The notes under the pieces are model-generated. The model was not told where the DNA came from. It saw nothing but the letters and a program-made list of their open reading frames with translations, and did no database searches. From a virus: a DNA stretch of 22,435 bases. Made by a program: the position numbers and the translations under genes. The stretch covers positions 1-22,435 of IMG/VR virus record IMGVR_UViG_3300032309_003125. The stretch is one strand, 5' to 3'. The number at the start of each line of letters is the position of its first letter. The first letter of the stretch is position 1. This document shows positions 524 through 22,435 of this stretch, piece by piece.

Positions 524-985
524 ATGGGTGACGGTACAACATATGGTATAAATTTTCCATTTAGAAATTCTTTAACAGGAGACTATTTGGAATTGACTAA
601 TACTGCAAACCAAGAAATCAGAGCGGATTTAATTAATCTTCTTTTAACAAGAAAAGGATCAAGATATTTCTTACCTGACTTTGGAACAAGATTATATGAA
701 TTCATATTTGAACCTATGGACGGTTTAACATTTGATGCTATCGAATCTGATATAAGAGCAAATGTAGAAAAATATATTCCAAATCTTTTGTTAGATAAAA
801 TAACAATTGAACCACTAGACCCAACAGAGGAAGCAACTGACGAATTTGCTTCTGTCGATCAACCCTCACCTGTTTATAGATATCCAGGGAAAGGAACCGC
901 AGAATACACTGCAAAAGTAAAAATTGAATATTCTGTTCAAGATAGCACTTTTGCAACAAGTGATTTTGTAATAATCAATATTTAA
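524..985 (+). CDS. gp25: Baseplate wedge protein, gp25-like (GPW/gp25 family)
   Basis: The 153-residue product matches the GPW/gp25 family in length and pattern. An N-terminal FPF is followed by a helical ALIN-type segment (ANQEIRADLINLLLTRKGSR), the family hallmark LPDFGTRLYEFIFEP, and a helix leading to VEKYIPNLLLDKITIEP. In T4 and other contractile machines this protein sits in the wedge core, binding gp6 and contacting the sheath-tube assembly. The position where relatives usually carry a Glu-Pro-Arg (EPR) motif appears to read Ile85-Pro86-Asn87, so only the proline is kept. An insertion of about 20 residues rich in acidic residues and prolines (roughly residues 97-120) precedes the last beta strands. 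The start fits the family N-terminus. gp6 follows after 5 nt, the usual wedge gene pairing. Confidence 0.9.
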   Translation: MGDGTTYGINFPFRNSLTGDYLELTNTANQEIRADLINLLLTRKGSRYFLPDFGTRLYEFIFEPMDGLTFDAIESDIRANVEKYIPNLLLDKITIEPLDPTEEATDEFASVDQPSPVYRYPGKGTAEYTAKVKIEYSVQDSTFATSDFVIINI

Positions 986-990
986 GATAA

Positions 991-2829
991 ATGGCTAATC
1001 GTAAGATATCATATACAACCAGAGACTTTGAAGGAATAAGATCCGAACTTATACAGTACGTTCGTACTTACTATCCTGAACTAATTCAAAACTTCAACGA
1101 TGCTTCGGTATTCTCAGTATTTTTGGATTTAAATGCTGCGGTAGCCGACAACTTACATTACCACATTGATAGAAGTATACAGGAAACTGTGTTACAATAC
1201 GCACAACAAAGATCTTCTGTCTACAACATTGCCAGGACATACGGATTGAAACTACCAGGACAAAGACCATCCGTAGCTCTTGTTGATTTTTCAATAACAG
1301 TTCCAGCCTTTGGAGATAAAGAAGATGAAAGATATTTGGGACAACTTAGAAGAGGTTCCCAAGTTTTAGGTGCAGGACAAGTTTTTGAAAACGTTGAAGA
1401 TATTGATTTTGCTTCACCGTATAATTCACAAGGGTTTCCAAATAGACTAAAGGTACCAAACTTCGATTCAAGTAATCGATTAGTAAACTATACAATTACA
1501 AAGAGAGAAGTTGTTGTTAATGGATTAACTAAAGTTTTCAAAAGAGTTATAAGTCCAAGTGATGTAAGACCATTCTTAGAAATATTCCTACCTGAAAAAA
1601 ACGTTTTAGGTGTTACAAGTGTTTTATTAAAAGATGGTACAAGTTACACAACAGTACCAACAGTCAATGAATTCTTAGGATTACAAAACAGATGGTATGA
1701 AGTTGATGCTTTAGCTGAAGACAGAATATTCATTGAAGACCCAACAAAAGTATCAGACCAACCAGGTATCAAAGTGGGTAGATACATTCAAACACAAGAT
1801 AGATTTATTACTGAATATACCCCTGAAGGATTTTTAAAGATGACTTTTGGTGGTGGAACAAACACATCACAAGATGCCTTAGATCAATTCACAACTCTTG
1901 GAGTTCCTTTGAATTTACAATTGTATCAAAATAACATGTCATTAGGATCTGCCTTAAAAGCTAACACAACATTATTCATTCAATATAGAACGGGTGGTGG
2001 GTTATCAACTAACTTAGGAACTAATGTAATTAATCAAATCGGTACAGTTACATTTTTCGTTAACGGTCCTTCTGAAAATATTAACCAACAAGTTGTTGGA
2101 TCTTTAAGATGTAACAACGTGACAGCAGCAATTGGTGGAGCGGGACAACCAACAGTAGAAGAAACAAGAAACTATGTTGCATTTAACTTCTCATCACAAA
2201 ACAGAGCGGTGACAATTAATGACTACGAAGCTATTATTAGAAAGATGCCATCTCAGTTTGGAGCACCTGCAAAAGTTGCGATAACTGAAAACAACAATAA
2301 AATTCAAGTTCAAATTTTATCATACGATACTTCAGGTAACTTAACATCAATTGTGTCAAACACCTTGAAACAAAACTTGGCAAATTATTTATCAAACTAT
2401 AGAATGATGAATGACTATGTTTCAATTGAAACTGCTGAAGTTATTGATCTTAGTTTTGAAGTTTCAGTTGTATTAGATGCAACACAAAACCAAGGACAAG
2501 TTATTACAAATATTATCAATAAGTTGACGACATTCATGAATCCACAAATAAGACAACTTGGACAAAACATTTATTTGTCTGAATTGAATAGTTTGATTCA
2601 AGACGAAAATGGAGTTATTACTGTTACAGGAATCAATGTGTTCAATGAAGTTGGAGGACAGTATTCATCATTCCAAACATCAATGGCATATTCTGATGAC
2701 GTTACAAAACAAATCAGACCTGTTGATGACACAATATTCGCTCAACCAAATCAAGTGTACCAAATCAGATATCCTCAGAAAGATATTAAGGTGAGAGTTA
2801 AGAACTTCCAGAACGTTCAGTTCTCTTAA
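991..2829 (+). CDS. gp6: Baseplate wedge protein, gp6/J-like
   Basis: The 612-residue product resembles T4 gp6 (about 660 residues) and the wider baseplate J family. The N-terminus has the typical YTTRDFEGIRSELIQYV...YPEL..NFNDASVFSVFLDLNAAVADNLHYHIDR pattern, followed by a helix with QETVLQYAQQRSSVYNIA and a GLKLPGQRPS turn (about residues 1-95). The middle is beta-rich with a GGGTNTSQD-type segment near residues 287-296. The later VTINDYEAIIRKMPSQFG segment near residue 410 is also typical of gp6/J proteins. In T4, gp6 dimers build the inner iris of the baseplate and drive its conformational switch. The gene follows gp25 by 5 nt and is followed by a 96-nt gap with a hairpin and a promoter-like motif, so gp25-gp6 looks like a two-gene unit. 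Confidence 0.9.
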   Translation: MANRKISYTTRDFEGIRSELIQYVRTYYPELIQNFNDASVFSVFLDLNAAVADNLHYHIDRSIQETVLQYAQQRSSVYNIARTYGLKLPGQRPSVALVDFSITVPAFGDKEDERYLGQLRRGSQVLGAGQVFENVEDIDFASPYNSQGFPNRLKVPNFDSSNRLVNYTITKREVVVNGLTKVFKRVISPSDVRPFLEIFLPEKNVLGVTSVLLKDGTSYTTVPTVNEFLGLQNRWYEVDALAEDRIFIEDPTKVSDQPGIKVGRYIQTQDRFITEYTPEGFLKMTFGGGTNTSQDALDQFTTLGVPLNLQLYQNNMSLGSALKANTTLFIQYRTGGGLSTNLGTNVINQIGTVTFFVNGPSENINQQVVGSLRCNNVTAAIGGAGQPTVEETRNYVAFNFSSQNRAVTINDYEAIIRKMPSQFGAPAKVAITENNNKIQVQILSYDTSGNLTSIVSNTLKQNLANYLSNYRMMNDYVSIETAEVIDLSFEVSVVLDATQNQGQVITNIINKLTTFMNPQIRQLGQNIYLSELNSLIQDENGVITVTGINVFNEVGGQYSSFQTSMAYSDDVTKQIRPVDDTIFAQPNQVYQIRYPQKDIKVRVKNFQNVQFS

Positions 2830-2925: not shown

Positions 2926-5900
2926 ATGACCAATTCTTACAGAATTAAAACACAAGTAGGGTCTGACCAAACAATAAATGTACAGATAGATCAAGAGTTC
3001 GACTTTTTAGAGATTCTATCTTTGAAGATTCAAAGTGATGATATCTACACAAGAAACTGTGCAGACTATGGTGTCATTGTTGGTCGTGTTACTGCTAACG
3101 GAGGATTCGGATTACCAAATGTAAGAGTGTCTGTTTTTGTACCTTTAGAACAAGAAGATGAGAATAACGAGATTATCTCAACACTTTATCCTTATAAAAC
3201 AACTAATGACAAGAATGAAGATGGGTATAGATATAATCTATTACCGTATGAAAAATCTTATTCAAAACATGCCGCGACAGGTACATTTCCTTCAAGAAAT
3301 GACGCTTTAACAAATCCAACAGTTGTTACTGTTTATGACAAATACTATAAGTTTACTGTAAAGACCAATGATAGTGGTGACTACATGATAATGGGTGTTC
3401 CATTAGGAGACCAAACAGTGTTCATGGATTGTGACCTATCTGATATAGGTGAGTTTAGTTTGACTCCACAGGACTTGATAAGAATGGGGATTGCAACTGA
3501 AAGCCAATTATCAGGAAATAATTTCAAATCATCACCTGACTTACAATCATTACCACAAATTATTTCACTTCAAGCAAATATAAGTGTGTCACCATTATGG
3601 GGACAACCTGAAGTTTGTCAATTAGCAATTAATAGAGTCGACTTTGATTTAAGGGATGATGCAAATATTGATATACAACCTACAGCAGTATTCATGGGAT
3701 CTATAATTTCTGCCAGTGATAGAAGAGTTATAAGAAAGAATTGTAGACCTTCTACCGAGGCGGGTAATATATGTGACTTAGTCTCAGGACCTGGTGAAAT
3801 TCTTGCAATAAGACAAACAGTAGGTCAAGATAGTAATGGTCGACCTATTTTAGAAGAGTATGAATTTGATGGAGGAGCTAAAGTAATAGATGGAGATGGT
3901 GCGTGGTTAACCGATTTACCTATGAATTTGGACTATGTCATAACCAATGAATTTGGTGAAAGAACAATATCTTTAGATCCAAATGTTGGTATACCAACGA
4001 AAGGGAAATATAGATTCAAAATTAAATGGGAACAATCTCCCGATATGGGAGAACAAGTTAAAAGAGCTTATTATCTTTTACCGAATGTGAGAGAATATGG
4101 TTGGAGCTCTGCATCATTGGACCCATCAACCTTTACGTCAGGGTCTACTTCATATCAACAATATCAAAAGTCTTATGCCTTTTCTTTGGATTGGGACGAA
4201 TACGCCGACCCAACAACAGCTATTAGTTGTCAAGACACCTTTTATGAATTTGGATACAATAGAGTTTATACTCCATCACAATTCATTGACGGATATCATA
4301 ATGGATCTAATAGAGGTAGATTCATCGGAATAAAAGAAATATTAGACTCGACTTGTGATTCGACAAACAACAAGTTTCCAACCAATGATGGAGTTAAGAA
4401 TTTTGATTTGATTTTCATCCTATTCAACTTCTTTTTTAGTTTTATAACGTTGTTACTTATACCATTAATGGTTGTGGTACATATACTGGCATTTTTATGG
4501 CCGATACTTAAAATTGTAATTACATTTGTATACGGAACACTGGCGACTTTTGTATATGTTTTATGTAAAATTGTTGATGCAATTCCATTTGTTACTATCA
4601 ATTGTCCAAGACCACCGTCGTTCAGAGATATTTTTAATTCATTAGGAGACCCGTTCAAAAATATTGCATTACCAACGATAACGTATCCTGATTGTGAACT
4701 TTGTTCTTGTACTAATGAAACACCAGAATCAAATGCAAACGCTCAGGCGTTCGTTCAAGAGTCTTTAAAAACGACATCTTTAACATTATTGGCGGATACA
4801 CCAAATCCTGTTTCTTATGGTAATATATTTGATGAACAATATTGTATTGATGATACTTGGTTCAAATATTATAATACAACTTATTTTACTTTAGATCAAC
4901 AAGGTATTTCATGTAGACGACAAACAGTTGAAAATCCAGCAAATGTATACCAAACAGATATACAAAGAATTGTTGCAGGAAATAATCAAAATAGTGTTGG
5001 ACAAAGAACTCCATCAACACTTTGGATTGCTGATAGACCTAGAGCATCTTTCGATTTGACCTTGACCGAAAGACTTAATTTATTTAATCTTAAGAATCAA
5101 TATTTTAATAGTACAGGAGGTTTCAACCAAGTTAGAACTTATGTTGCCTCAGATGTTGCAGCCAACTCAGGACAGTATCATTATGATAATACAATAACGA
5201 TTTTATGTGATCCTATTACATTAGAAAATTTTACAACAGGAAGAGTGATGACGTTCCAAAATCCATTCAATTCTTTGGATCCAAACGTGAATGGTGCTGA
5301 AACTAATTTCTCAGGATTTTCGTCATCAACAGGATACGCTAAGAACCTGAAGGCAATCACAGTGAATTATGCTAATCCTGATAATCCTGATCAATTGTTA
5401 TCTCAACAGTATATTGTTAATCAATCGGCGGATACTATTCAAAACTGTTGGGTTTCCACAATAACTGCGGAAACAGGAACACAATGGTACTATACTGATT
5501 GTGACGGAATTTATCATTCTGGAGACACATTGATGACAGGTACAGTATGTGTAAATGATTTATTTCCGTATGATGGCGTTGCAATAACAAGCGCGAGGTG
5601 TCAAGAGCCCAAGTTTCTAATGTATTCAAAAGTTAAATCTGATTGTGAATACTTCCAAGTTATTACGGCAATGACTTACAGTAATTTTTCATCTTTAAAT
5701 CCACAGGTTTTCACAGGACAAAGAAGTTTAAATGAAAGATATATTGCTGGTGCAATGTATTTGTGGGAAGAACATCACGTTAAAACAGGGTTCTTAGGTT
5801 TAGGACAAGGAGCCAAAACTTGGCAACCGATGTATGCAACAAGACCATACTATGCAATACCTGACAACAAAGATATTTGTGTTGTTGTATTACAAAGAGG

Positions 5901-8169
5901 TGTTGACCCAAACAGTACAAGACAAACAACAACAGTAGACATATCAAGGATATGCGGACAACCATATGGAACAGTACAAGTAACATCAAAATATAAATTG
6001 AATATTCCTATACAAACAGGTTTAGTCTTACCAAGACATGATCAATATTCTACAAATGAGAGTAGTCCCATATTTTTTGACTCATATATTTTCCAACCAG
6101 GAACAAATTATTCAGGATATACTACAAACATGCCTTCATATTATTCAAGTTTGGACTCAACAAGTGTTGGGTCATTCCAAGTTAAATCTGGAAACACATA
6201 TTCTATTTTAGATTCTACAAAGGTGACAATAAACTCAGGAAGTTATGGGTCTTATTTGAAGGCAAACACTTCTGTGAACGTATTTGGGATGTCACAATAT
6301 CCAATAGTAAGTTCACAACCAATGTATAGTGATTATGCTGCTGTTTTAAATCCAAATAAACTCAATTGGTATACTGTATTCGGAAGATATTACTCAGATG
6401 TTTCACAAGGTAAAAAAATGGTGGGATATTGGAACGATGAATATGTGGAAGGAGGTTCGTATTTCTTTGCATCGGTTGGAGGAACTATTGAAGATAATTT
6501 AGCTTCTCTAAGAGTCGATAGATTTGTTTATTTCTCTCCAGTCTACTCAACAGCTACCACAATGTCTATGCAAGCTCAAACTGAAAAAATTGTCATGAGA
6601 ACAGACAGACTTCCAACATCAACTTCAAGATCAGGATATGAAAACAACAGTTACTTGTTACACCAAAATACAAACTTCAGTTTTTATTTTGTTAGTGACG
6701 AAGGTGATGTTGAGTCTTATGATGATCAAGGGGCTTCATTTTTAATTAATGAGGCAGCAGAAGAACTAAGTCAGTATGAAGAACAATTCACATCGACCTT
6801 TACATGTCAAGGATTAGTACCATTACAATGTTATTCTGGTGATTCAGAATCATTCGGTGTTAAACCTTCTACAGATTCTTGTTATAAGAAAGCTGTTGTT
6901 AAAGGAGGATGTTATGTTTTTGTTAGTAAGGTTATATTGTCATTACCTAATGACTTTAAACAATTAGGTGAATACAAGGCAAGAACAAGAGTAAACTTCG
7001 CAGCTTGTAGAGGTGTATTCGGACATACCTTTATTAATAATTGGGTTAATGGTGTGTTATATCATTTTCCTTTTAGAAATTTAAGATTTTTTAAATCTCC
7101 TTTAGATCCTGTAGATCCTAACGGACCATATAATGAGTTTTGTAAGGACACAATTGTATTACATGAAAAGACCAATAATTTTTATTATAGATCTTCACCA
7201 TACAATTCATCGAGTAAAACATTTGTTGGTAAACAAAGAACACCTTCACCAAGAAGAAGAAATGAAAAAGAAATTCTATTCCCAACAACTGTTATGGATA
7301 TGGGACCAAGAGACGCTTTCACTCAAGAGATTTCGTTAAACGAAGAATTCTATGGATATAATATGACTAATATACCAACTACTACATTCCAAGACCCTGC
7401 TGAAATTTTGAATCTTTTTATCATATCAAGACAGGTTAACTCTAAGTGGTTGGGTAATCTTATTGGATTAGGAGATGGATCTATTAACGCTTTCTTTACA
7501 AGAAATAAGTCAAAGATAGATGGGGACTATGCTCAAATGATTTCAATTAATTCAGAACTCGGTGTTCAAGAATTCAATTTTGAGGCATACACTGCACAAT
7601 CAGGATCAAGTACAAACAATCCATTCTACGTTGGACAAGATAGAAGTGGTAACCCAGTGATTGGTGTTTTCTTCTCTTCTGATACTGTAACAAGAGACTT
7701 GGTTACTCCGAGAAGATTGATTAGAAATGATAATGCAACATATAACAGTGCTGTTTATGATTACTTACCTGTTAAAACACAGGAAGTTCCATTCTATTCT
7801 TGGCAAACAAGAAATAGTAATGCTATCTTCGGTACCGAAAATAATGATTGGAGAACAGGATCAATTGAGAAAAATCTATATCAGAAGTTAAATAGAACTG
7901 ATATTACATCAAACTATTTTATGGGTGAAAATCCAAGAGCAGACTTCATGAAAGGATACATTTATAATAGAAGTAATGTTTTATTCGGAGCTGGAACTAC
8001 AGGTGAAGCTTATCAGTTCGAAGGAGATAAAAACACTGCCGATTCACCGAGTTACGACCCGGTTAATTTAAATTCTTATTTCACAGTTGGATTACCTTTC
8101 CATTTCTATTTTGGATTATCGAGAGGTAAGAGTGCGATGAATAGGTTTGTTAAAAAATATGTTGATTAA
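2926..8169 (+). CDS. Very large putative baseplate/tail protein with an internal membrane-type module
   Basis: This 1747-residue protein is the largest complete gene here and sits directly after gp6, where T4 has gp7. Residues about 48-172 look like a carboxypeptidase-regulatory-like beta-sandwich (VGRVTANGGFGLPNVRVSVF, then DSGDYMIMGVPLG). Residues about 495-558 are strikingly hydrophobic, long enough for two or three membrane helices broken only by Pro513, His519, Pro526, Lys529 and Lys548. They are followed by a CxxCxC cluster (Cys590, Cys593, Cys595). The remaining 1150 residues are polar, rich in Tyr, Asn and Ser, and end in a VGLPFHFYFGLSRGKSAMNRF segment. An in-frame stop lies immediately upstream of the chosen ATG. 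Location by synteny suggests a baseplate part, but I do not recognise the protein as a whole and do not claim it is gp7. Its stop overlaps the next ATG (TAATGG). Confidence 0.75.
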   Translation: MTNSYRIKTQVGSDQTINVQIDQEFDFLEILSLKIQSDDIYTRNCADYGVIVGRVTANGGFGLPNVRVSVFVPLEQEDENNEIISTLYPYKTTNDKNEDGYRYNLLPYEKSYSKHAATGTFPSRNDALTNPTVVTVYDKYYKFTVKTNDSGDYMIMGVPLGDQTVFMDCDLSDIGEFSLTPQDLIRMGIATESQLSGNNFKSSPDLQSLPQIISLQANISVSPLWGQPEVCQLAINRVDFDLRDDANIDIQPTAVFMGSIISASDRRVIRKNCRPSTEAGNICDLVSGPGEILAIRQTVGQDSNGRPILEEYEFDGGAKVIDGDGAWLTDLPMNLDYVITNEFGERTISLDPNVGIPTKGKYRFKIKWEQSPDMGEQVKRAYYLLPNVREYGWSSASLDPSTFTSGSTSYQQYQKSYAFSLDWDEYADPTTAISCQDTFYEFGYNRVYTPSQFIDGYHNGSNRGRFIGIKEILDSTCDSTNNKFPTNDGVKNFDLIFILFNFFFSFITLLLIPLMVVVHILAFLWPILKIVITFVYGTLATFVYVLCKIVDAIPFVTINCPRPPSFRDIFNSLGDPFKNIALPTITYPDCELCSCTNETPESNANAQAFVQESLKTTSLTLLADTPNPVSYGNIFDEQYCIDDTWFKYYNTTYFTLDQQGISCRRQTVENPANVYQTDIQRIVAGNNQNSVGQRTPSTLWIADRPRASFDLTLTERLNLFNLKNQYFNSTGGFNQVRTYVASDVAANSGQYHYDNTITILCDPITLENFTTGRVMTFQNPFNSLDPNVNGAETNFSGFSSSTGYAKNLKAITVNYANPDNPDQLLSQQYIVNQSADTIQNCWVSTITAETGTQWYYTDCDGIYHSGDTLMTGTVCVNDLFPYDGVAITSARCQEPKFLMYSKVKSDCEYFQVITAMTYSNFSSLNPQVFTGQRSLNERYIAGAMYLWEEHHVKTGFLGLGQGAKTWQPMYATRPYYAIPDNKDICVVVLQRGVDPNSTRQTTTVDISRICGQPYGTVQVTSKYKLNIPIQTGLVLPRHDQYSTNESSPIFFDSYIFQPGTNYSGYTTNMPSYYSSLDSTSVGSFQVKSGNTYSILDSTKVTINSGSYGSYLKANTSVNVFGMSQYPIVSSQPMYSDYAAVLNPNKLNWYTVFGRYYSDVSQGKKMVGYWNDEYVEGGSYFFASVGGTIEDNLASLRVDRFVYFSPVYSTATTMSMQAQTEKIVMRTDRLPTSTSRSGYENNSYLLHQNTNFSFYFVSDEGDVESYDDQGASFLINEAAEELSQYEEQFTSTFTCQGLVPLQCYSGDSESFGVKPSTDSCYKKAVVKGGCYVFVSKVILSLPNDFKQLGEYKARTRVNFAACRGVFGHTFINNWVNGVLYHFPFRNLRFFKSPLDPVDPNGPYNEFCKDTIVLHEKTNNFYYRSSPYNSSSKTFVGKQRTPSPRRRNEKEILFPTTVMDMGPRDAFTQEISLNEEFYGYNMTNIPTTTFQDPAEILNLFIISRQVNSKWLGNLIGLGDGSINAFFTRNKSKIDGDYAQMISINSELGVQEFNFEAYTAQSGSSTNNPFYVGQDRSGNPVIGVFFSSDTVTRDLVTPRRLIRNDNATYNSAVYDYLPVKTQEVPFYSWQTRNSNAIFGTENNDWRTGSIEKNLYQKLNRTDITSNYFMGENPRADFMKGYIYNRSNVLFGAGTTGEAYQFEGDKNTADSPSYDPVNLNSYFTVGLPFHFYFGLSRGKSAMNRFVKKYVD

Positions 8170-12669: not shown

Positions 12670-15665
12670 TGGCAGTAACTCAGAAATATTTTTATCCTCC
12701 GAGACCCGCTTCAGGAGTTAATACATTCTCGGACAACATCGTGGGTTTACAACTCGTTGATGGAGGGGGACTTACGCAGGGTAATTTCGAATTTACAACA
12801 GCAGTTACAGAAAAGGTTAATAGAACCTTCAACATCGGAGCGTTCTCTGAACCAATAACTTTAGAGAATCTTGATATTGATAGAATTAATGAGAGTAGAT
12901 TAATATTTGCTAAAGAATTTAGAGTTTATCCAAACTTAGATTTAACCGAAGTTACCAACTTTTCAATGTATGGATCGTTGGCGAAGAGACTTGAAGTTTC
13001 AATTACAAGAATTATTAATCATTTTCCGGCTTCTTTGGATATAAGGTATATGAGTACTCAATCGTTAACAGGGTATACTGCGACAAATATCGTTTATGAT
13101 TCTGTTAACGATGAAACAACGTTTACAATTGATGTTGATAGAATTGTTAATCCATTTGCGATAGATTACTCAATATCTGCAGCAACCAATATTATTGCTA
13201 GAGAAATTGTAACGTCTCCGTTAAGAAATTTAAACCAAACGTATTTGGACTATTGTATTGCAATTACTAACACAGGTAATACAACCAATCCCTATGATAT
13301 TTTCAAAGTATTATCATTCGACCCTTCAACAAGTTTATCATCAGGATATCTTACGTTTTACGTTTCAGGATCTCCTTTTGGAACTACAGCAACAACATAT
13401 CAAAATAACTTCCAAGTAAGACCTAACGACTTGGTTGTCGATCAAGTTTTTGCGGAAACCTTTAATGAGGTTGAGAAATTCTTACTTAATAGACTTATTG
13501 ATCCACCATATACTGCGGTGTTCCAAGTGCCCGCAGAAAATCAAAACGGACAAGTGTATACAAGCATTTCAACTTTGACATGGCCTTTAGATGGAGTATG
13601 GAACTTAGATATTACATCTCCAAGTTTCGAATATTATTTGGAACAAATAGGATATGTTGCAACTGAACTAGACACTTACAAAACAGATTTATTATCTAGA
13701 TTTCTAACTCAAGAATCGTTTAAGGAGTTTGATACCAAGGAAAGAAAGGTTGAGAAGATTTTACAAATCTATGGTAGAAGTTTTGACGAGATAAAAAAAT
13801 TCATTGATGGTATGGCTAACATGACTTCGGTTAACTATACAGTGCAAGATGACGTTCCTTCGTTGTTATTGAAGAACTTGGCTGCAACATTAGGTTGGGA
13901 ACCAAATGTATCTCCGATTACTAATGAGAATTTTTTAGATTCTGTTTTTGGACAAACAAACACACCAACATATCCAGGTTACACAAGAGCCTTAACACCA
14001 ACAGAGTTGAACTATCAATTTTATAGAAACTTGATATTAAATTCAGGTTATTTGTTTAGATCAAAGGGTACAAGAAAATCGGTTGAATTTTTATTAAGAT
14101 TAGTCGGTGCTCCTGAATCATTAGTCGAGTTCAACGAGACAATATATCTTGCGGATCAAAGAATCAATATGGAGCAATTTACAACACAATTTGCTCAAAT
14201 ATCAGGAGGTACTTACGCAAACAACGTACCATCCTTAGCTGCAGGACAAACTTATAAGATACAAGGACAAACTTACACAGGATTTACTTCAACAACCACC
14301 TATGAACAAGTTAGACTTGGGGCTTCTGATTACCCTGTGGACATTTTAGGTTATCCAAGTGCACCGACAGACACTGAAGATTATTTCTTCCAAAAGGGCG
14401 CTGGTTGGTACGAAAGTACGCCACAACATAGAAGTCCTGAAATACCATTGGTAACACAAGTATTCACAGGTGCTAACCCTGATATACAAACTCAATTAGA
14501 GCCGTTCACATATGGACAACTTTATTTAGAAAGATTTAGAGATTTTCCCTATATGACTGAAGGATTTAAACTTCAAAAAACAATAGATAATAAAAAGTCA
14601 TGGGTTTCGGACGACGATGACTTAAGAATCTCAACAGATGCAGGATATGATGCTTATTATTACATTGACAATGAAAAATTGATATTGAATGCAAAGAATG
14701 TCGATTTGTTTTTAAATCCTGGACAAGGTTTAGTTTATGATGTTTGGACTCAATCAAGATTATATGACTATCCAATTCCTGAAAGTGGAATGACATCACC
14801 ATTCCCAACACCAGGAGGGGTTGATTGGACATTTATCAACCCACAACCGAAGAAAAAGACATTCTTTGAATTTGCTCAAACATTTTGGCAAAATACAATC
14901 AATGTTAGAAATAGAATGTATATCACTGACGGACATACTGGAGGTTATCCAACATTATCTTCAATCTTTTGGAAATATTTGGAACAAGAAAATACTATTG
15001 GAATTCCTAACAACCAATACACTTATCAGAAACTAATTGATTATGTTGAAGGGTTAGGACCATATTGGATGAAGTTAGTGGAACAAATGATTCCAGCAAC
15101 AACAATTTGGAATTCAGGAACAAGATTTGAGAATTCAATATTTCAAAAACAAAAATATGTTTACAGAAGACAAAGAGGGTGTCAGTTTGTACCGGTGCCT
15201 GCAGATAGTTGTTACATAATAGGAAATGTATTTAACTACGACTGTTCAACAGAGTTTGTTGAATTTGGTGTATATCCGTGGTTAAATGGAGATGCATCCG
15301 TTAGTAACTTCCAAGGAATACTTGCAAATAGATTACAGAACTTTTTATCTGAAGAAGGACTTACACTAAATGAGTGTATAACAAGTACACTTACAACACA
15401 GTGGTATGTTGATATGAGAATCGGTGATGAAGTTTTGATATTCGCACCTTTCTATGAAGGATTTGGGTTGAATGATGTTCCAAGTAGATCACTTTGGAAA
15501 AACACACTTTCATCAAATTTAGATAATTTATACAATTATGGATTGAATTACTTCATCAATGGGAATATATTGAATGTTACGAATATGGATTGTGTTCCAA
15601 AAAACTTAGATCAAACTTTGAGTTTGAATGTAGGTATAAATTTATCAATAAGTTGTGTTAATTAA
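12669..15665 (+). CDS. Large tail protein, candidate gp7 / P2 gpI-like wedge component
   Basis: The 998-residue product has a helical stretch around residues 341-416 (FLTQESFKEFDTKERKVEKI, LLLKNLAATLGWE) followed at about 448-490 by NLILNSGYLFRSKGTRKSVE and FLLRLVGAPESLVEFNE. A helix, the phrase RSKGTRKSVEFLLRLVG, then a beta segment is the arrangement I associate with phage tail protein I and its wedge relatives, which pair with gp6/J and gp25. A second conserved-looking segment near residues 798-838 reads LGPYWMKLVEQMIPATTIW, then a tyrosine- and arginine-rich YVYRRQRGC. The N-terminal ~330 residues are beta-rich. Starting on the stop of its neighbour and ending on the ATG of the SprB-repeat gene, it sits mid-operon. 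The gpI/gp7 link is a by-eye inference; a generic structural protein is the alternative. Confidence 0.65.
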   Translation: MAVTQKYFYPPRPASGVNTFSDNIVGLQLVDGGGLTQGNFEFTTAVTEKVNRTFNIGAFSEPITLENLDIDRINESRLIFAKEFRVYPNLDLTEVTNFSMYGSLAKRLEVSITRIINHFPASLDIRYMSTQSLTGYTATNIVYDSVNDETTFTIDVDRIVNPFAIDYSISAATNIIAREIVTSPLRNLNQTYLDYCIAITNTGNTTNPYDIFKVLSFDPSTSLSSGYLTFYVSGSPFGTTATTYQNNFQVRPNDLVVDQVFAETFNEVEKFLLNRLIDPPYTAVFQVPAENQNGQVYTSISTLTWPLDGVWNLDITSPSFEYYLEQIGYVATELDTYKTDLLSRFLTQESFKEFDTKERKVEKILQIYGRSFDEIKKFIDGMANMTSVNYTVQDDVPSLLLKNLAATLGWEPNVSPITNENFLDSVFGQTNTPTYPGYTRALTPTELNYQFYRNLILNSGYLFRSKGTRKSVEFLLRLVGAPESLVEFNETIYLADQRINMEQFTTQFAQISGGTYANNVPSLAAGQTYKIQGQTYTGFTSTTTYEQVRLGASDYPVDILGYPSAPTDTEDYFFQKGAGWYESTPQHRSPEIPLVTQVFTGANPDIQTQLEPFTYGQLYLERFRDFPYMTEGFKLQKTIDNKKSWVSDDDDLRISTDAGYDAYYYIDNEKLILNAKNVDLFLNPGQGLVYDVWTQSRLYDYPIPESGMTSPFPTPGGVDWTFINPQPKKKTFFEFAQTFWQNTINVRNRMYITDGHTGGYPTLSSIFWKYLEQENTIGIPNNQYTYQKLIDYVEGLGPYWMKLVEQMIPATTIWNSGTRFENSIFQKQKYVYRRQRGCQFVPVPADSCYIIGNVFNYDCSTEFVEFGVYPWLNGDASVSNFQGILANRLQNFLSEEGLTLNECITSTLTTQWYVDMRIGDEVLIFAPFYEGFGLNDVPSRSLWKNTLSSNLDNLYNYGLNYFINGNILNVTNMDCVPKNLDQTLSLNVGINLSISCVN

Positions 15666-17845
15666 TGGCGTCGTTTAATTATGTAGTTAATGTTACAGGA
15701 GATTGTCAGAACGATGGTACTGGATCAATCTCAGTTGGATTCTCAGGAGGAACTCCTCCTTATACCGTGCAGTGGATAAGTCCCTATAATAGTGGAGATA
15801 TATTCAATTATTTAGCATATGATTATAGTTTTATTGACCCAACATCATACCTTTTAACATATTCAGTCCTAACAAATCTTTCGGCTAACACATATACATT
15901 CAGAGTAAACGACTCTACGGTACCTGTTAACTTAGAATATGCTGTAAACGTTCCTGTTTCGTCAGGAAACTGTACAAGTATTATTGATGTTTCTGCAACA
16001 ACATGTAACCAAAATAATGGTAGTGTAACTGCTGACGCAAGTTCAGATTATTCTGACACAGCCTACATTCTTTTCACTTCAAATAATGAAATGGTTCAAT
16101 CAGGAATTACTGCATTGGATCAATTAACATTCCAAGGGTTATCTGCGGGAACGTATTATGTCTCTTCCATAGATTATGGTGGATGTACAGGTACATCACA
16201 ATCTTTTGTGGTTAACTCATCGGTTGAAGTTGATTATGGATTTTATCCTGTTGATGATACACAATGTGGATCTGCATCAGGTAGAATTATTGTAACAGGA
16301 CAGACAGGAGTTCCACCATGGACATACATTTGGAATGATGGAAGTACGGGAAGTACCCTTACAGGATTAACTGCTGGTACGTATAGTGTTAAAGTAACAG
16401 ATGCGACAGGATGTTCCACAATTAAGAGCCAAGCCATTGGTCAAATAGACCCTGTAGGTTTAGGAGGGTTTACTGTAGACCAAGTACCAACTTGTTTGAA
16501 CTCTGATGGTATAATAACAATGACAATAACAGGGGGGACAGGTCCATATTACTATTCTGCATCAACAGGTGCAATAGATGTTAGTTATTTAAAGACTTTC
16601 CAATTAGTTGGAGTTCCTGCAGGATCTTATAACTTCATGGTGACAGATGCCGCATTATGTAAATTCACAACGGGTATTGATTTGGCGACAGAAAATGGTA
16701 TTTCTGATATTATTTTGTCTGTTACACCAAGTTCATGTAGTAATGCCGACGGATCTATCTTAGTAACTGCATTGGGAGGAACATCTCCGTATACGTTTAC
16801 GTTGATTTACCCTGACTCATCAACCTTTTCAATTACATCGAATGCTGCGTCCTATACATTCAGTGAATTATCAGGTGGAACCTATACAATTATATTAGAA
16901 GACTCTACAGGTTGTTATTTCTTAAGTGAAAGTGCCATATTATCAAGTAATTCATTTACTATAACCGCAACTACAACAGGAACAACTTGTTCTGCAAGTA
17001 ATGGAACCATTGTTGTTGAGAAATCTACAGGTGGTATTGCACCATTTGACTACTCACTCGATGGAATTCAAAATATAATTGATACAACTGCGAGTGCTGT
17101 CACATTTACAAATGTTACTGCGGGACAACATCAGATTTCTGTTACGGATTCATCAGGATGTACCCAAACAACTCAAGTTTATGTTAGTCCAAGTACACCA
17201 CTTTCTTACAATTTGTATTCGACATCTTGTGGTCAGGGTTCTGAAGGTACAATTACCGCATTTATCTCTGATGGAATACCTCCGTTCACGTATGAGTGGT
17301 CAAGTAACGTTGAATCTAATCCACAAGAGATTAAAGTGACAGGATTGACTGCGGGAACGTATTCGTTAACTGTTATTGATTCAAGCGGATGTAGTCAAAC
17401 AAGAACAACAATAATCGATTGTGATAAAACATATGTTTCATATCAAAGTTATGTGATGGGTGCAGAAATATTCTCTGTAGTTGCAGGAACAAAGAGGGGT
17501 ATGTTACAATTAATGAATGAAGGATTTGATGATTTAACACAAGGAAAAACAAACTGTGTCTTAGTTTCTGCAGATTTTACAGCAAAAGTTGAAATACAAC
17601 CACAAGGTACAGTATTAGAACAATATTTTTATACAAGCACAAGTTTAGTTCAAGCGCCACCTGATAGTTTATACTATTCTACTGTCGAAACATTACTTGA
17701 AAGTATTTGGGGAATTGGTGATGTAACAATTGATCAATTAACTAATGAAATTACAATACAGACAGATAGAAGTGAAACATCATTAAATAATCAAGAAGTG
17801 AAAGTTGAACTAATTATAGTATACGACATTAAGTGCTTGACATGA
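15665..17845 (+). CDS. SprB-repeat virion protein
   Basis: The 726-residue product consists of about seven SprB-type repeats followed by a different C-terminal domain. Repeats begin near Cys14, Cys114, Cys201, Cys277, Cys358, Cys442 and Cys522, so most are 76-87 residues. The clearest units read CGSASGRIIVTGQTGVPPW then YIWNDGSTGSTLTGLTAGTY then SVKVTDATGC, the classic C..ssGsi.v...GG..PY.Y.W...GLtaGtY.V.VtDs.GC pattern. SprB repeats are known from the Flavobacterium gliding adhesin SprB and other Bacteroidota surface proteins. Repeats 1 and 2 are the most degenerate. Residues about 587-726 carry no repeat and may attach the protein to the virion. There is no signal peptide, so it is probably assembled on the tail rather than secreted. 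It overlaps its neighbours at both ends (TAATGG upstream, ATGA downstream). Confidence 0.82.
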   Translation: MASFNYVVNVTGDCQNDGTGSISVGFSGGTPPYTVQWISPYNSGDIFNYLAYDYSFIDPTSYLLTYSVLTNLSANTYTFRVNDSTVPVNLEYAVNVPVSSGNCTSIIDVSATTCNQNNGSVTADASSDYSDTAYILFTSNNEMVQSGITALDQLTFQGLSAGTYYVSSIDYGGCTGTSQSFVVNSSVEVDYGFYPVDDTQCGSASGRIIVTGQTGVPPWTYIWNDGSTGSTLTGLTAGTYSVKVTDATGCSTIKSQAIGQIDPVGLGGFTVDQVPTCLNSDGIITMTITGGTGPYYYSASTGAIDVSYLKTFQLVGVPAGSYNFMVTDAALCKFTTGIDLATENGISDIILSVTPSSCSNADGSILVTALGGTSPYTFTLIYPDSSTFSITSNAASYTFSELSGGTYTIILEDSTGCYFLSESAILSSNSFTITATTTGTTCSASNGTIVVEKSTGGIAPFDYSLDGIQNIIDTTASAVTFTNVTAGQHQISVTDSSGCTQTTQVYVSPSTPLSYNLYSTSCGQGSEGTITAFISDGIPPFTYEWSSNVESNPQEIKVTGLTAGTYSLTVIDSSGCSQTRTTIIDCDKTYVSYQSYVMGAEIFSVVAGTKRGMLQLMNEGFDDLTQGKTNCVLVSADFTAKVEIQPQGTVLEQYFYTSTSLVQAPPDSLYYSTVETLLESIWGIGDVTIDQLTNEITIQTDRSETSLNNQEVKVELIIVYDIKCLT

Positions 17846-18264
17846 CAAGAGTAGAAATTTTAGCGGTAACGGGTACAACCCCAATAAATGTATATGTCTC
17901 TGATTATTATGGTAATTATGAGACATTAATTTATACCATCACCTCAGGTAGTTCAATTCCTCCTGCCACAGGTGCAACTCTTTCATCAGTATTTGCTACG
18001 GCACCTGCTATTTTGTTGAAAATGGTGGATGCAAATGGGTGTGAGAAGATAGAACTACTCGAATGTAGATTCGGTTGTTCGTTCTTGATTACAATCCAAG
18101 CTGAATCTTGTGTGACAGATATTACTATCAGTACATCATCTTGTGACGTTGGTGGTTTAGCGATTGTGGAAGCAAGTTGTGTAACAACGTTAAACATTCA
18201 AGAACCTAATTGTGGTACATCAATAGTGGTTCAGGAACCTAATTGTGGGTTAGTTTTAAATTGA
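17842..18264 (+). CDS. Small protein with an 11-residue cysteine repeat
   Basis: I chose the ATG at 17842, which overlaps the preceding stop as ATGA; a GTG at 17833 would add three residues. The 140-residue product has an N-terminal domain (residues 1-75, with TPINVYVSD and a closing CEKIELLEC). It then has a regular ladder of cysteines at 79, 90, 101, 113, 124 and 135, spaced 11, 11, 12, 11 and 11. Repeats alternate hydrophobic residues (CSFLITIQAES, CVTDITISTSS, CVTTLNIQEPN, CGTSIVVQEPN), suggesting stacked beta strands as in a solenoid. The last two repeats share QEPNCG and are nearly identical in DNA over 18 bases, 33 bp apart, so the array seems to have grown by duplication. Function unknown; context suggests a small virion component or fibre adaptor. 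Confidence 0.65.
   Translation: MTRVEILAVTGTTPINVYVSDYYGNYETLIYTITSGSSIPPATGATLSSVFATAPAILLKMVDANGCEKIELLECRFGCSFLITIQAESCVTDITISTSSCDVGGLAIVEASCVTTLNIQEPNCGTSIVVQEPNCGLVLN
18076..18261 (+). repeat. 33-bp coding repeat giving a Cys ladder
   Basis: About five and a half units of 33 bp (one of 36 bp), each starting with a TGT cysteine codon, inside the 3' half of the small protein gene. The copies at 18199-18215 and 18232-18248 are almost identical; the earlier copies have drifted. Confidence 0.6.
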
Positions 18265-18330: not shown

Positions 18331-19926
18331 ATGAGCTTATATTCTATATTTGTTGTTAATACTGCTCCTGGTTGCGATAACTCAATTGAACAACAATTAA
18401 ATGTTTCTGGTTGTACCAATTATATTGTTAGATTAGCCTCTAATTCTAACGCATTAGGTCCGTTTGACATTTACTTGGATGCGATTGCACCTGCCAATAT
18501 TTTATATTCAGCTGTTACGAGATACGACATGTTTAATGGTGTTGTTATTGAGTTAGAATGTACTCTTACACCAACTCCAAGTAACACACCAACTCCGACA
18601 CCTACAGTCACGACAGGATTAACTCCAACACCAACTAGAACTAATACTCCTACACCAACAAATACACCATCAATTTCCGCAACTGAAACAAGTACACCAA
18701 CTCCAACAGGAACTCCAACTCAAACACCTTCTAATACGCCAACAGAAACCCCAGCAGCAACGGCAACCGCAACACCAACAACAACTCAAACTCAAACACC
18801 TACAACAACTCAAACTCAAACACCTACAACAACTACAACTTTAACTGCGTCTCCAACTCCGACGGTAACGTCAACCCCAACAGAAACTCCTACAAATACA
18901 CCAACAGGTACTCCAGCAGCAACAGCAACCGCGACACCAACAGAGACACCAACATCAACTCCTACAAATACACCAAGTACAACTCCAACAAATACACCAA
19001 GTATAACACCGTCACAAACAGAAACACCAACAACAACACCTACTGAAACTCCTACAAATACACCGACACCTTCAATAACTGCGTCTCCAACAGAAACACC
19101 AACACCAACACCTTCAATAACTGCATCTCCAACTGAGACAATGACGCCGACGCCGACAACTACGTCAACACCTACTGAAACGGTTACACAAACTCCATCA
19201 CCATCGGTAACTGCAACACCAACAATGACTCCAACTGAGTCAATGACACCAACACCTTCGGTGACAGTAACTGCAACACCAAGTATGACTCCTACTGAGT
19301 CACCAACACCTACGGCAACATTAACACCTACAGGGTCCCCTACTCCAACACCAACACCAGCTCCATTATTAGCATATCTATTTATTGAACCTACTTCCGC
19401 AAATACAACGTTTAGTGGTTGGATGGCAGCGGGAAGTGTAGGAACATTCCGTGGATTTAGTAATGGTGTCTTACCATCAACAATTCAGTCATCATTTGAT
19501 GCTCAGTTCAATAGATATATGAACTACTCAGGTTGGACAATAAACGCTCCGGCAATTGAATCAGCAGCAATATCAACAACTACAGGAGGTTTAGATCCAT
19601 ATGGTAATACTATTGAGGCATATAAATTCCAAACTCACGAAGTTGCTGCGGGAACAACAGCGGGTAATGCATGGTTTACATGGATTATTGCTACGGGATC
19701 AACAAATGGTCAAAAACTTTCTGCAATTGGAATTAACAGTCTTGGAAATCCAAATGCATTGACATCAACAAATATGAATGCTACTTGGTACAACTTGACG
19801 GTAAATTACACAGGATCTACAATACCTCAAGGTGTTTACAGAGTTTACTCAACATTCAACGCCACTCAATCAAGAATAAACAATTCGTTAAATAATTTAT
19901 ATTTCAGAGGAAATACACTTGTTTAA
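18331..19926 (+). CDS. Stalked virion protein with Thr-Pro-rich linker
   Basis: The 531-residue product has three parts. Residues 1-79 form a small domain with three cysteines ([18 protein letters not shown], ending VVIELEC). Residues 80-345 are a 266-residue low-complexity stalk built from TPT, TPTxTPT, TETPT and TNTP units, with no aromatic or basic residue apart from one Arg near its start. Residues 346-531 form a compact-looking domain ([19 protein letters not shown], later [13 protein letters not shown] and ending [11 protein letters not shown]). A Thr-Pro tract of this length should be extended and stiff, holding the C-terminal domain away from the anchored N-terminus, as in many surface adhesins. 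A receptor-binding or decoration role is inferred. The gene stands alone between two promoter-like motifs. The repeats could expand or shrink by recombination. Confidence 0.7.
18568..19365 (+). repeat. Thr-Pro low-complexity coding repeat
   Basis: About 800 bp encoding only a few residue types. It includes perfect or near-perfect direct repeats: a 24-bp unit twice in tandem at 18781-18828 (TTQTQTPT twice), and a 42-bp unit starting at 19069 and again at 19111 ([14 protein letters not shown] type). Codons vary at third positions between other copies, so most of the array is old. Confidence 0.8.
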
Positions 19927-19973
19927 TGGATAAACATAACATAATAAATATTTATAGGTCGTATGAGCTTTAA
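19926..19973 (+). CDS. Possible 15-codon micro-ORF between stalk and fibre genes
   Basis: The stop of the stalk gene is followed by the same TAATGG junction used at five true gene borders here. The ATG at 19926 opens a 15-codon frame ([15 protein letters not shown]) that spans the promoter-like motif and ends 11 nt inside the next gene, in another frame. It could keep ribosomes moving to the fibre start, or be a relic or chance. Low confidence. Confidence 0.2.
   Translation: MDKHNIINIYRSYEL
19949..19956 (+). promoter_or_regulatory. TATTTATA motif before the fibre gene
   Basis: Exact TATTTATA, 6 nt upstream of the fibre ATG at 19963, in a 36-nt gap. As at 512, the spacing would give an almost leaderless transcript if this is a promoter element of T4-late type. 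Confidence 0.45.
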
Positions 19974-22435
19974 TTACAAAAACCCAGTTTCACCAGTAAC
20001 CCTAACGGGACCAGATTCGGTCTCCTTAGATGCTAACTACGGATCAAACTATAGCGTTTTGGGCGTAGGAGGTTACATGGAAGTCTACTCGTATCAGGAT
20101 TTGGATTTCATTATTCCATCCGGTTCAAGTGGAACAATTTTATATTCCGGAAATACCATTCCGATTGACTTTTCGTATGGTGTGCCAATCTCTAATCCTG
20201 ATGTATTATCATTAGCATCAGATGGAATTTCTTCAGGTAGAAGGAGACTTGGAATGCTTGCCTATGTCATTACTGCGGACACGACCTATCAGTATACCAT
20301 AGACAATTATGCAACATTATTTAATGCAGCTGAAAATGCTGGAGACTTACTTGATTCATGTACGGGTTATGTTTGTTACAACACACAAGTTGCGGGTCAA
20401 AACTTCATCAATGCATGGACAGGATCTACAATTGAAGGTGTTAATGGTGTAACGAGAGAAAATGCTAGATGGAGAGTTTATACACCAGGTGGACCAAGTA
20501 GTGGATCTCTTTCAGTTTCTGACGGAGTTACCACAGTAACTTCTGTTACAGGATTAACAGTTTCAGGTGCAACAGTAATAAGTGGTGGTACCGGTTTAGC
20601 AATTCTAAATATTACAGGTGCAACATCGGGTTCTTCTGGAACAAGTGGAACATCAGGTATTGATGGTTCCTCTGGAACAAGTGGAACATCAGGATTAGAT
20701 GGTAGCTCAGGAACAAGTGGATCTTCAGGAACATCTGGATCTTCAGGAACGTCAGGAATTAATGGTATATCAGGAGGTCAGAGATATTATTTCAACAGTT
20801 CGGTTACAGACGGATCATTTAAAGAATTTGGTTTAACTGCTGATAATTTACCTGAATCTTCAATAACTGACGGTGCAAGTGCTGGACAAACAATAATATT
20901 ACAAGAATATATTACACCAATAGGAAACCCAGGAGTAACATTTATTCCAGGTGGAATTTGGTCATTTTTCTTACATTTTTCTCAACAAACTTCAGGAGAT
21001 ACAATCCAAGTAGCTGCACAAGTTTATTCAAGAACAACAGGAGGATCAGAAAATTTATTATTTACTTCTGACTTTGTTATGATTCCAAGTAACGCAGTTA
21101 CTCCCTCTCCTGAAATGGTATTATCAGATGCTTATTTTTCAGGAACAAGTTTAAATATATCGGATAGAATTGTAGTTAAAGTTTTAGCGGAAAATTTAGG
21201 AGCTTCTTCTACAAACATGAGTTTTTGGTCAGAAGGAGGAGAACATTATTCATATGCTTCAACTCCATTAAGTATAACAAGTAATGGTTCGTCAGGAACT
21301 TCTGGTTCTTCAGGAACTAGTGGTAGTAATGGTACAGATGGTACATCAGGAACTAGCGGAAGTAACGGAACTGATGGTACATCAGGAACTTCAGGATCAA
21401 ATGGAACAGATGGAACTTCAGGAACTAGTGGTAGTAATGGAACAGATGGTTCTTCAGGAACTTCAGGTTCTAATGGAACAGATGGAACTTCAGGAACTTC
21501 AGGTATAGATGGATCATCAGGAACCTCAGGTTCTAATGGAACTAGTGGAACTTCAGGTGTGAGTGGTATAGATGGTACAAACGGTTCTTCAGGAACATCA
21601 GGTTCCAACGGTACAGACGGAACTTCTGGTTCTAATGGTACAGACGGTACATCAGGTACAAGTGGTAGTAACGGAACGGATGGTACATCAGGTACAAGTG
21701 GTAGTAATGGAACGGATGGTACTTCTGGTTCTAATGGAACAGATGGTACATCAGGAACAAGTGGTATAGATGGTACTTCAGGAACATCGGGATCAAATGG
21801 TACAGATGGTTCTTCAGGAACAAGCGGAAGTAATGGTACAGACGGAACTTCAGGTACATCTGGTTCTAATGGAACAGATGGTTCATCAGGAACAAGTGGT
21901 AGTAATGGTACAGACGGTACATCAGGTACAAGTGGTAGCAATGGTACAGACGGTACATCAGGTACAAGTGGTAGTAACGGAACAGATGGTACATCCGGAA
22001 CAAGCGGAAGTAACGGAACAGATGGTTCATCCGGGACAAGCGGAAGTAACGGAACAGATGGTTCATCAGGTACAAGTGGTAGCAATGGTACAGACGGTAC
22101 TTCGGGAACATCAGGTTCTAATGGTACAGATGGTACGTCAGGAACTAGTGGTATAGATGGTACATCAGGAACTTCAGGTTCAAATGGTACGGATGGAACT
22201 TCAGGTACATCTGGATCAAATGGTACGGATGGAACTTCGGGAACTTCTGGCTCAAATGGTACAGACGGAACTTCGGGAACTTCTGGTTCTAATGGAACAG
22301 ATGGTTCATCAGGTACAAGTGGTAGTAACGGTACAGACGGAACTTCGGGAACTTCAGGTTCTAATGGTACGGATGGAACTTCAGGAACAAGTGGCTCAAA
22401 TGGTACAGACGGAACTTCAGGTACGTCAGGTTCGA
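19963..22435 (+). CDS. Large collagen-like tail fibre protein, 3' end outside window
   Basis: The frame stays open from ATG 19963 to the last base, at least 824 residues. Residues 1-222 form an N-terminal domain with a GRRRLGMLAYVITADTTYQY segment and NARWRVYTPGG. Residues 223-271 are a first Gly-X-Y tract (GSS, GTS, GID type). Residues 272-441 form a globular, probably beta-rich domain (GGQRYYFNSSV, PGGIWSFFLHFSQQ, TIQVAAQVYSRTTGG). From residue 442 onward the chain is an unbroken Gly-X-Y tract, mostly the 12-residue unit GSN-GTD-GTS-GTS. Collagen-like stretches are well known in phage tail fibres, where they trimerise and extend the tip. This one has no proline, so a polyglycine-II-like bundle is another option. 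The C-terminal tip, probably receptor-binding, is not in the window. The ATG follows a promoter-like motif by 6 nt. Confidence 0.8.
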   Translation, partial: MSFNYKNPVSPVTLTGPDSVSLDANYGSNYSVLGVGGYMEVYSYQDLDFIIPSGSSGTILYSGNTIPIDFSYGVPISNPDVLSLASDGISSGRRRLGMLAYVITADTTYQYTIDNYATLFNAAENAGDLLDSCTGYVCYNTQVAGQNFINAWTGSTIEGVNGVTRENARWRVYTPGGPSSGSLSVSDGVTTVTSVTGLTVSGATVISGGTGLAILNITGATSGSSGTSGTSGIDGSSGTSGTSGLDGSSGTSGSSGTSGSSGTSGINGISGGQRYYFNSSVTDGSFKEFGLTADNLPESSITDGASAGQTIILQEYITPIGNPGVTFIPGGIWSFFLHFSQQTSGDTIQVAAQVYSRTTGGSENLLFTSDFVMIPSNAVTPSPEMVLSDAYFSGTSLNISDRIVVKVLAENLGASSTNMSFWSEGGEHYSYASTPLSITSNGSSGTSGSSGTSGSNGTDGTSGTSGSNGTDGTSGTSGSNGTDGTSGTSGSNGTDGSSGTSGSNGTDGTSGTSGIDGSSGTSGSNGTSGTSGVSGIDGTNGSSGTSGSNGTDGTSGSNGTDGTSGTSGSNGTDGTSGTSGSNGTDGTSGSNGTDGTSGTSGIDGTSGTSGSNGTDGSSGTSGSNGTDGTSGTSGSNGTDGSSGTSGSNGTDGTSGTSGSNGTDGTSGTSGSNGTDGTSGTSGSNGTDGSSGTSGSNGTDGSSGTSGSNGTDGTSGTSGSNGTDGTSGTSGIDGTSGTSGSNGTDGTSGTSGSNGTDGTSGTSGSNGTDGTSGTSGSNGTDGSSGTSGSNGTDGTSGTSGSNGTDGTSGTSGSNGTDGTSGTSGS
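20629..20775 (+). repeat. First collagen-like Gly-X-Y tract
   Basis: Sixteen Gly-X-Y triplets (GSS, GTS, GID, GLD, GIN, GIS), encoding residues 223-271 of the fibre protein. The DNA is built from GGAACA-AGT-GGA-type blocks with third-position variation. It separates the N-terminal domain from the 170-residue middle domain. Confidence 0.8.
21286..22435 (+). repeat. Long 36-bp tandem coding repeat (GXY tract)
   Basis: At least 127 consecutive Gly-X-Y triplets running off the end of the window. The main unit is 36 bp (GSN GTD GTS GTS). Exceptions are 27-bp units lacking one triplet and GID-GTS-GTS variants near 21505, 21763 and 22150. Third codon positions vary freely between copies while the protein pattern is kept. 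Some neighbouring copies are nearly identical in DNA, for example around 21650-21715 and 21900-21970. The repeat keeps the opposite strand open by chance. Confidence 0.9.

Follow-up and report, generated by a model that had tools for sequence, protein, structure and literature searches.

We find that a gene in the baseplate/fibre module of an uncultured phage encodes seven SprB-type repeats followed by a non-repeat C-terminal domain, and that the repeat number is seven in all 96 IMG/VR cores compared (non-redundant at 95%). Judging from sequence comparisons, we propose with a probability of about 0.6 that this protein, P0001, is carried on the virion of a contractile-tailed phage as a constant spacer or stalk with swappable tips. 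The seven Ig-like domains would form a rod ending in the C-terminal domain and lying between the baseplate and the host-recognition tips. Specificity would come from tips that are interchangeable and hang on Thr-Pro linkers, whether fused to the C-terminal end of the protein itself or encoded by downstream genes, and the C-terminal domain would be a junction module that probably pairs with a paralog at the end of the preceding baseplate-module protein. The Ig-like domains that phages display have usually been portrayed as variable adhesives of low specificity. The array found here, frozen at seven with unrelated tips exchanged on Thr-Pro linkers, would give such domains a structural role. It would also locate host specificity in uncultured, probably Bacteroidota, phages, with the conserved array as a marker beside which receptor-binding modules can be found. 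We found no description of the P0001 family in the open-access literature.

The window analyzed here is the complete 22,435-nucleotide stretch of IMG/VR record IMGVR_UViG_3300032309_003125. Within it, P0001 and its parts are:

15665-17845, plus strand: SprB-repeat tail-module protein P0001, 726 aa; open reading frame, Pfam SprB match at E=2.3e-26, more than 150 ortholog ORFs fetched (some duplicates)
15671-15973, plus strand: SprB-type repeat 1 (residues 3-103); PF13573 match at 15704-15778; greatest length variation, 85-108 aa in orthologs
15974-16234, plus strand: repeat 2 (residues 104-190); below the Pfam threshold, placed by alignment and by a beta unit in the model; C114 and C174 invariant
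16235-16462, plus strand: SprB repeat 3 (residues 191-266); PF13573; own clade, support 100/100
16463-16708, plus strand: SprB repeat 4 (residues 267-348); PF13573; own clade, support 99/89
16709-16957, plus strand: SprB repeat 5 (residues 349-431); PF13573, best stretch
16958-17194, plus strand: SprB repeat 6 (residues 432-510); PF13573
17195-17422, plus strand: SprB repeat 7 (residues 511-586); PF13573; highest conservation, mean pairwise identity 0.67
17423-17842, plus strand: non-repeat C-terminal domain (residues 587-726), predicted alpha/beta, AF2 pTM 0.80

P0001 scores 91.6 bits with the Pfam SprB model (PF13573), for which the curated cut-off is 28 bits, and matches it in six separate stretches. 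In a six-frame search these fall at 15704-15778, 16253-16348, 16487-16573, 16718-16804, 16964-17071 and 17225-17308, and the same search gave no match in any of 14 control genomes. The six stretches correspond to repeats 1 and 3-7. Repeat 2 is missed by the Pfam model; given that it aligns with the other repeats (20-32% identity) and is predicted to form an all-beta unit like theirs, we count seven repeats in total. The repeats are 20-40% identical among themselves, are about 76-101 aa long by alignment and predicted structure, and are of the beta-sandwich type. The full-length structure model has a pTM of 0.29, which limits trust to domain-level folds; at this level the PDB entries nearest to the modelled array are fragments of the Aureispira (Bacteroidota) grappling-hook adhesin GhpA. 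A preliminary description of this DNA had reported seven SprB-type repeats, with their motif, in a gene at 15665-17845, and the Pfam match together with the alignment and model of repeat 2 bears this out.

P0001 is packed closely between its neighbors. Its ATG at 15665 shares the last base of the preceding stop codon, and the likeliest start of the next gene, ATG 17842, overlaps the P0001 TGA (17843-17845) in a 4-base ATGA overlap. The genes that define the module are:

524-985, plus strand: gp25-like baseplate wedge protein (PF04965 2.9e-11; phrog_261 2.7e-19)
991-2829, plus strand: gp6-like/Baseplate_J wedge protein (PF04865 1.2e-5; phrog_219 1.1e-25; 26% identity to the baseplate wedge protein of Flavobacterium phage immuto)
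12669-15665, plus strand: 998-aa protein, probable large baseplate (wedge-type) protein, by profile matches to Mel-JY01 WWT39511 and immuto gp109
17842-18264, plus strand: next gene, a small domain of 140 aa from ATG 17842 (143 aa if GTG 17833 is the start), with Thr-Pro linkers and tips in some relatives
18331-19926, plus strand: 531-aa protein with an N-terminal domain (86 residues conserved), a long Thr-Pro linker and a C-terminal tip, read from sequence
19963-22435, plus strand: collagen-like (GTSGTDG) fibre gene, Pfam Collagen E=5.5e-62, cut by the window end

The profile of the 998-aa protein matches WWT39511 of Microcystis phage Mel-JY01, a large gene behind gp6, with an hhalign probability of 89 and, more weakly, gp109 of Flavobacterium phage immuto with a probability of 43. 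None of the immediate neighbors of P0001 has a confident family match. Given the gp25-like and gp6-like genes upstream, the profile matches of the 998-aa protein, and the Thr-Pro-linker and collagen-like fibre genes downstream, we infer that the flanking genes are tail genes. The preliminary description had placed the gene between tail genes with overlapping starts and stops; the overlaps and the gp25-like and gp6-like genes upstream are there to be seen, and the tail identity of the immediate neighbors is read from this context. Naming the neighbors after T4 gp7-gp12 was rejected, as there was no profile match to T4 proteins and only the 998-aa protein matched immuto and Mel-JY01. Two further genes of the window stand out. 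The collagen-like gene has a very long run of GTSGTDG repeats whose length differs among relatives, and a 1747-aa protein (2926-8169) without a Pfam match is only about 30% identical between subclades in its C-terminal half, versus about 65% for the neighboring 998-aa protein.

Profile scans of IMG/VR show that SprB-array proteins are not a one-off but a family found in hundreds of uncultured contractile-tailed phages. A first scan identified 79 loci, including ones on contigs of 183 and 326 kb, and essentially all of them share the gene order 568-262-359-301-998-P0001-143 aa where the contig allows. A second scan, with a distant ortholog of the 998-aa protein as query, found at least 534 relatives, 80 of which were fetched. 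Here a seven-repeat SprB protein, with identity to P0001 reaching down to about 33%, directly follows the 998-aa gene wherever the contig end does not cut; at one locus (L224) the SprB gene is split in two frames. The position of P0001 in the baseplate/fibre module is thus conserved in both scans, in agreement with the earlier assignment of the gene to a tail module.

The array itself is highly constant. The 96 cores measure 675-746 aa, and their repeats differ little in length (72-108 aa); the repeat counts come from a model trained on the P0001 family, and the constant core lengths give them independent support. Twelve of the 14 repeat cysteines, two per repeat in repeats 2-6, are retained in at least 94 of the 96 cores. 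Among 34 representatives, the repeat at a given position has a mean pairwise identity of 54-67%, with conservation peaking at repeat 7, also high in the C-terminal domain, and lower in the N-terminal repeat; overall, the array and the C-terminal domain are conserved to about the same degree. When phage and bacterial repeats are placed in one tree, built from 78 alignment columns, positions R1, R2, R3, R4 and R7 each form a strongly supported clade. Because these position clades are supported and the repeats have diverged within the protein, we conclude that the seven-domain array predates the family and has not been reshuffled. A fast-evolving receptor binder was rejected, as repeat number is constant in intact orthologs and there are no homogenised repeats. 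In some bacterial SprB-type proteins the repeats are up to 97-99% identical, and in others they have diverged like those of P0001.

Variation is instead concentrated in what follows the core. In 25 of the 95 other non-redundant orthologs the chain extends more than 60 aa beyond the C-terminal domain. The extensions, 84-695 residues long, are usually attached via a Thr-Pro-rich linker, and similarity was seen in just 12 of 300 pairs of extensions, even though the cores average 47% identity. Two extensions contain DUF285 repeats (E=4.5e-145 and 2.5e-82), which are grouped with BspA-like leucine-rich repeats; a third has a sub-threshold match to leucine-rich repeats and a fourth is a candidate YVTN-type propeller, with a match below the cut-off. 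About three quarters of the orthologs, P0001 included, have no fused tip, and there the link to a tip is one of gene neighborhood. For instance, in relatives L072 and L040 the Thr-Pro linker and tip are located on the next gene, and in the window they are on the 531-aa protein. These unrelated extensions and tip-bearing downstream genes indicate that the variable material sits behind or downstream of the SprB core and not inside it. The preliminary description had suggested that the repeats may serve in host binding or mimicry; with repeat number and length frozen in 96 cores and change found in the tips and downstream genes, this finds no support, and we favor a binding role for the tips. The conserved Ig-like domains may nonetheless bind a ligand that is itself conserved and of low specificity.

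The C-terminal domain of 140 residues has a confident small alpha/beta model and no fold relatives in the PDB at E<=0.001 (best E 0.013). Closer to hand, the last ~100 residues of the preceding 998-aa protein (about 15357-15647) resemble it: the profile of the domain matches the C-terminus of the 998-aa protein with E-values to 2.7e-5 (hhalign E=9e-6), and in hmmsearch real sequences score up to 24.7 bits, while 1660 shuffled sequences score at most 6.1 and reversed sequences below 0. We take the two domains to be paralogs, and they may pair, which would make that of P0001 a docking module. The appearance of this paralogy led us to soften an earlier reading of the C-terminus as simply the distal end. 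Residues 587-726 had been proposed at the outset as the virion anchor. The paralogy to a baseplate-module protein speaks for this; the tips fused behind the domain speak against it, as the domain cannot form a buried end in the phages that carry them.

The same observations bear on a Hoc-like geometry in line with the preliminary description, in which the C-terminal domain would sit on the baseplate while the seven SprB domains face away from it and themselves bind host surface glycans or adhesins, weakly and reversibly. T4 Hoc has this order, an N-terminal string of Ig-like domains and a non-Ig C-terminal domain that binds the capsid (PMC10385173), and both the C-terminal paralogy and the conservation peak at repeat 7 and the adjoining domain would fit; the less conserved N-terminal repeat likewise agrees better with an N-terminus that is free than with one that anchors the protein. 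However, Hoc homologs carry 1 to 10 Ig domains of variable sequence (PMC10385173), whereas the number in the P0001 family is constantly seven, with a conservation close to that of the C-terminal domain, and the variable modules lie behind that domain. We regard this arrangement as rather unlikely and prefer the stalk with exchangeable tips, in which either end of the protein may face the virion.

That P0001 is itself a Hoc-like capsid decoration protein is highly improbable. Residues 306-426 match phrog_3945, "Hoc-like head decoration" (E=2.3e-10), and PDB decoration proteins give weak matches at the sequence level. The phrog_3945 match, however, is confined to the Ig-like repeats; Hoc is on the capsid, and P0001, judged by its gene neighborhood and sequence, would belong to the tail: every relative seen has the gene in its baseplate/fibre module, and the C-terminal domain is similar to the C-terminus of a baseplate-module protein.

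By profile the repeats of P0001 are SprB repeats, and its sequence indicates that the whole protein is not a SprB-type gliding adhesin, because it has neither a signal peptide nor a T9SS sorting domain. The N-terminus (MASFNYVVNVTGDCQNDG...), as read from the sequence, has no hydrophobic segment and hence no Sec signal peptide. Searches with CHU_C (PF13585) and TIGR04131 gave no match in P0001, and the same searches detect such a domain in a protein of phage record LR756502; Por_Secre_tail gave no match above its cut-off. P0001 thus resembles SprB of Flavobacterium and GhpA of Aureispira in its profile and fold matches, and differs from them in these missing export features, in its short, fixed array and in its place within a run of phage structural genes. 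The fold and motif common to Bacteroidota adhesins and P0001 might suggest mimicry, with the array disguising the tail as material of the host surface or binding to host SprB in a homotypic manner. The sampled bacterial repeats are at best about 42% identical to those of P0001, nothing points to a recent exchange between phage and host repeats, and we give mimicry a very small chance. A dynamic version, in which the array engages the moving SprB-family adhesins or T9SS track of the host and the particle is carried by the gliding machinery to an injection site, strikes us as equally far-fetched. Least credible of all is a secreted host-surface adhesin (moron) exported by the host T9SS during infection: an example exists in the distant huge-phage record LR756502, whose protein has 13 SprB stretches and CHU_C/TIGR04131, but P0001 lacks the N-terminal signal and the sorting domain and lies within a translationally coupled structural gene run.

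It is plausible that the repeats were borrowed from a host adhesin, as was first proposed. A single host-to-phage transfer was set aside, given that the repeat phylogeny, at 78 columns, shows neither direction nor a single origin. Of 61 genomes sampled from the phylum to which an Allomuricauda genome belongs, 12 have SprB repeats. Across 84,980 bacterial and archaeal genomes, a search with the family profile that used two short peptide patterns returned only two distant bacterial SprB proteins and no prophage copy, an absence to which these short patterns lend little weight. In the phage collection, no isolate with a P0001-type gene was found. The phage host is probably a member of the Bacteroidota, on two indirect grounds. 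First, a Shine-Dalgarno-like motif precedes none of 12 window genes, similar to the immuto region (2 of 33) and in contrast to T4 (12 of 18). Second, the nearest gp6 proteins from isolates (26% identity) are mostly from Flavobacterium phages. The Bacteroidota -33/-7 promoter motif was not usable, with counts near chance.

Among known systems, the closest parallels are T4 Hoc, compared above, and gp64 of crAssphage, a protein of the tail region with eight tandem BACON domains whose configuration depends on the lineage and whose array is distinct from bacterial copies (PMC6949934). Like P0001, it has Ig-like domains in tandem, of a type known from Bacteroidota surface proteins, and is encoded in the tail region of a phage. 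The domains differ (BACON PF13004 versus SprB PF13573), as do the crAss-like lineage and the gp25/gp6-bearing lineage of P0001, and BACON was absent among the Pfam matches of P0001 up to E=1. The nearest isolates by gp6 (~26%), immuto (vB_FspM_immuto) and Mel-JY01, each encode, behind gp6, a homolog of the 998-aa protein; in contrast to the P0001 phages, SprB repeats are absent throughout both genomes, and none were found in phage records LR756508 and T4. UniProt A0A6J5LD72 from an uncultured Caudovirales phage, 714 aa long and 34% identical over the model (Foldseek E=2.3e-60), is very likely a member of the P0001 family by its modelled fold; the database already labels it "SprB repeat", and we found no paper describing it in the open-access literature.

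SprB-type repeats also occur elsewhere in the sequences examined. LR756502.1, a 642-kb phage record, encodes a 1670-aa SprB-repeat protein (L019:18885-23897) with a signal-peptide-like N-terminus, PKD and a CHU_C/TIGR04131 T9SS sorting domain, which together make up an entire secreted adhesin of the host type, in a sequence that was deposited as a huge phage; the phage origin of this stretch is putative. In one subclade, a tail-region protein with two SprB-like repeats is encoded downstream of the P0001 ortholog (L018:14351-16423, with similar ORFs in L181, L194 and L203). Contigs of 183 and 326 kb contain a second fibre region (L125:2711-5200 and L126:2389-4878), in which an 829-aa Thr-Pro-linker protein with weak SprB-type repeats adjoins a 728-aa conserved fibre-like protein. 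Lastly, on a 183-kb contig (L128, 75648-95647) a run of glycosyltransferase-, radical-SAM- and GDSL-like genes lies directly behind the fibre module and perhaps modifies the Thr-Pro linkers or the host surface.
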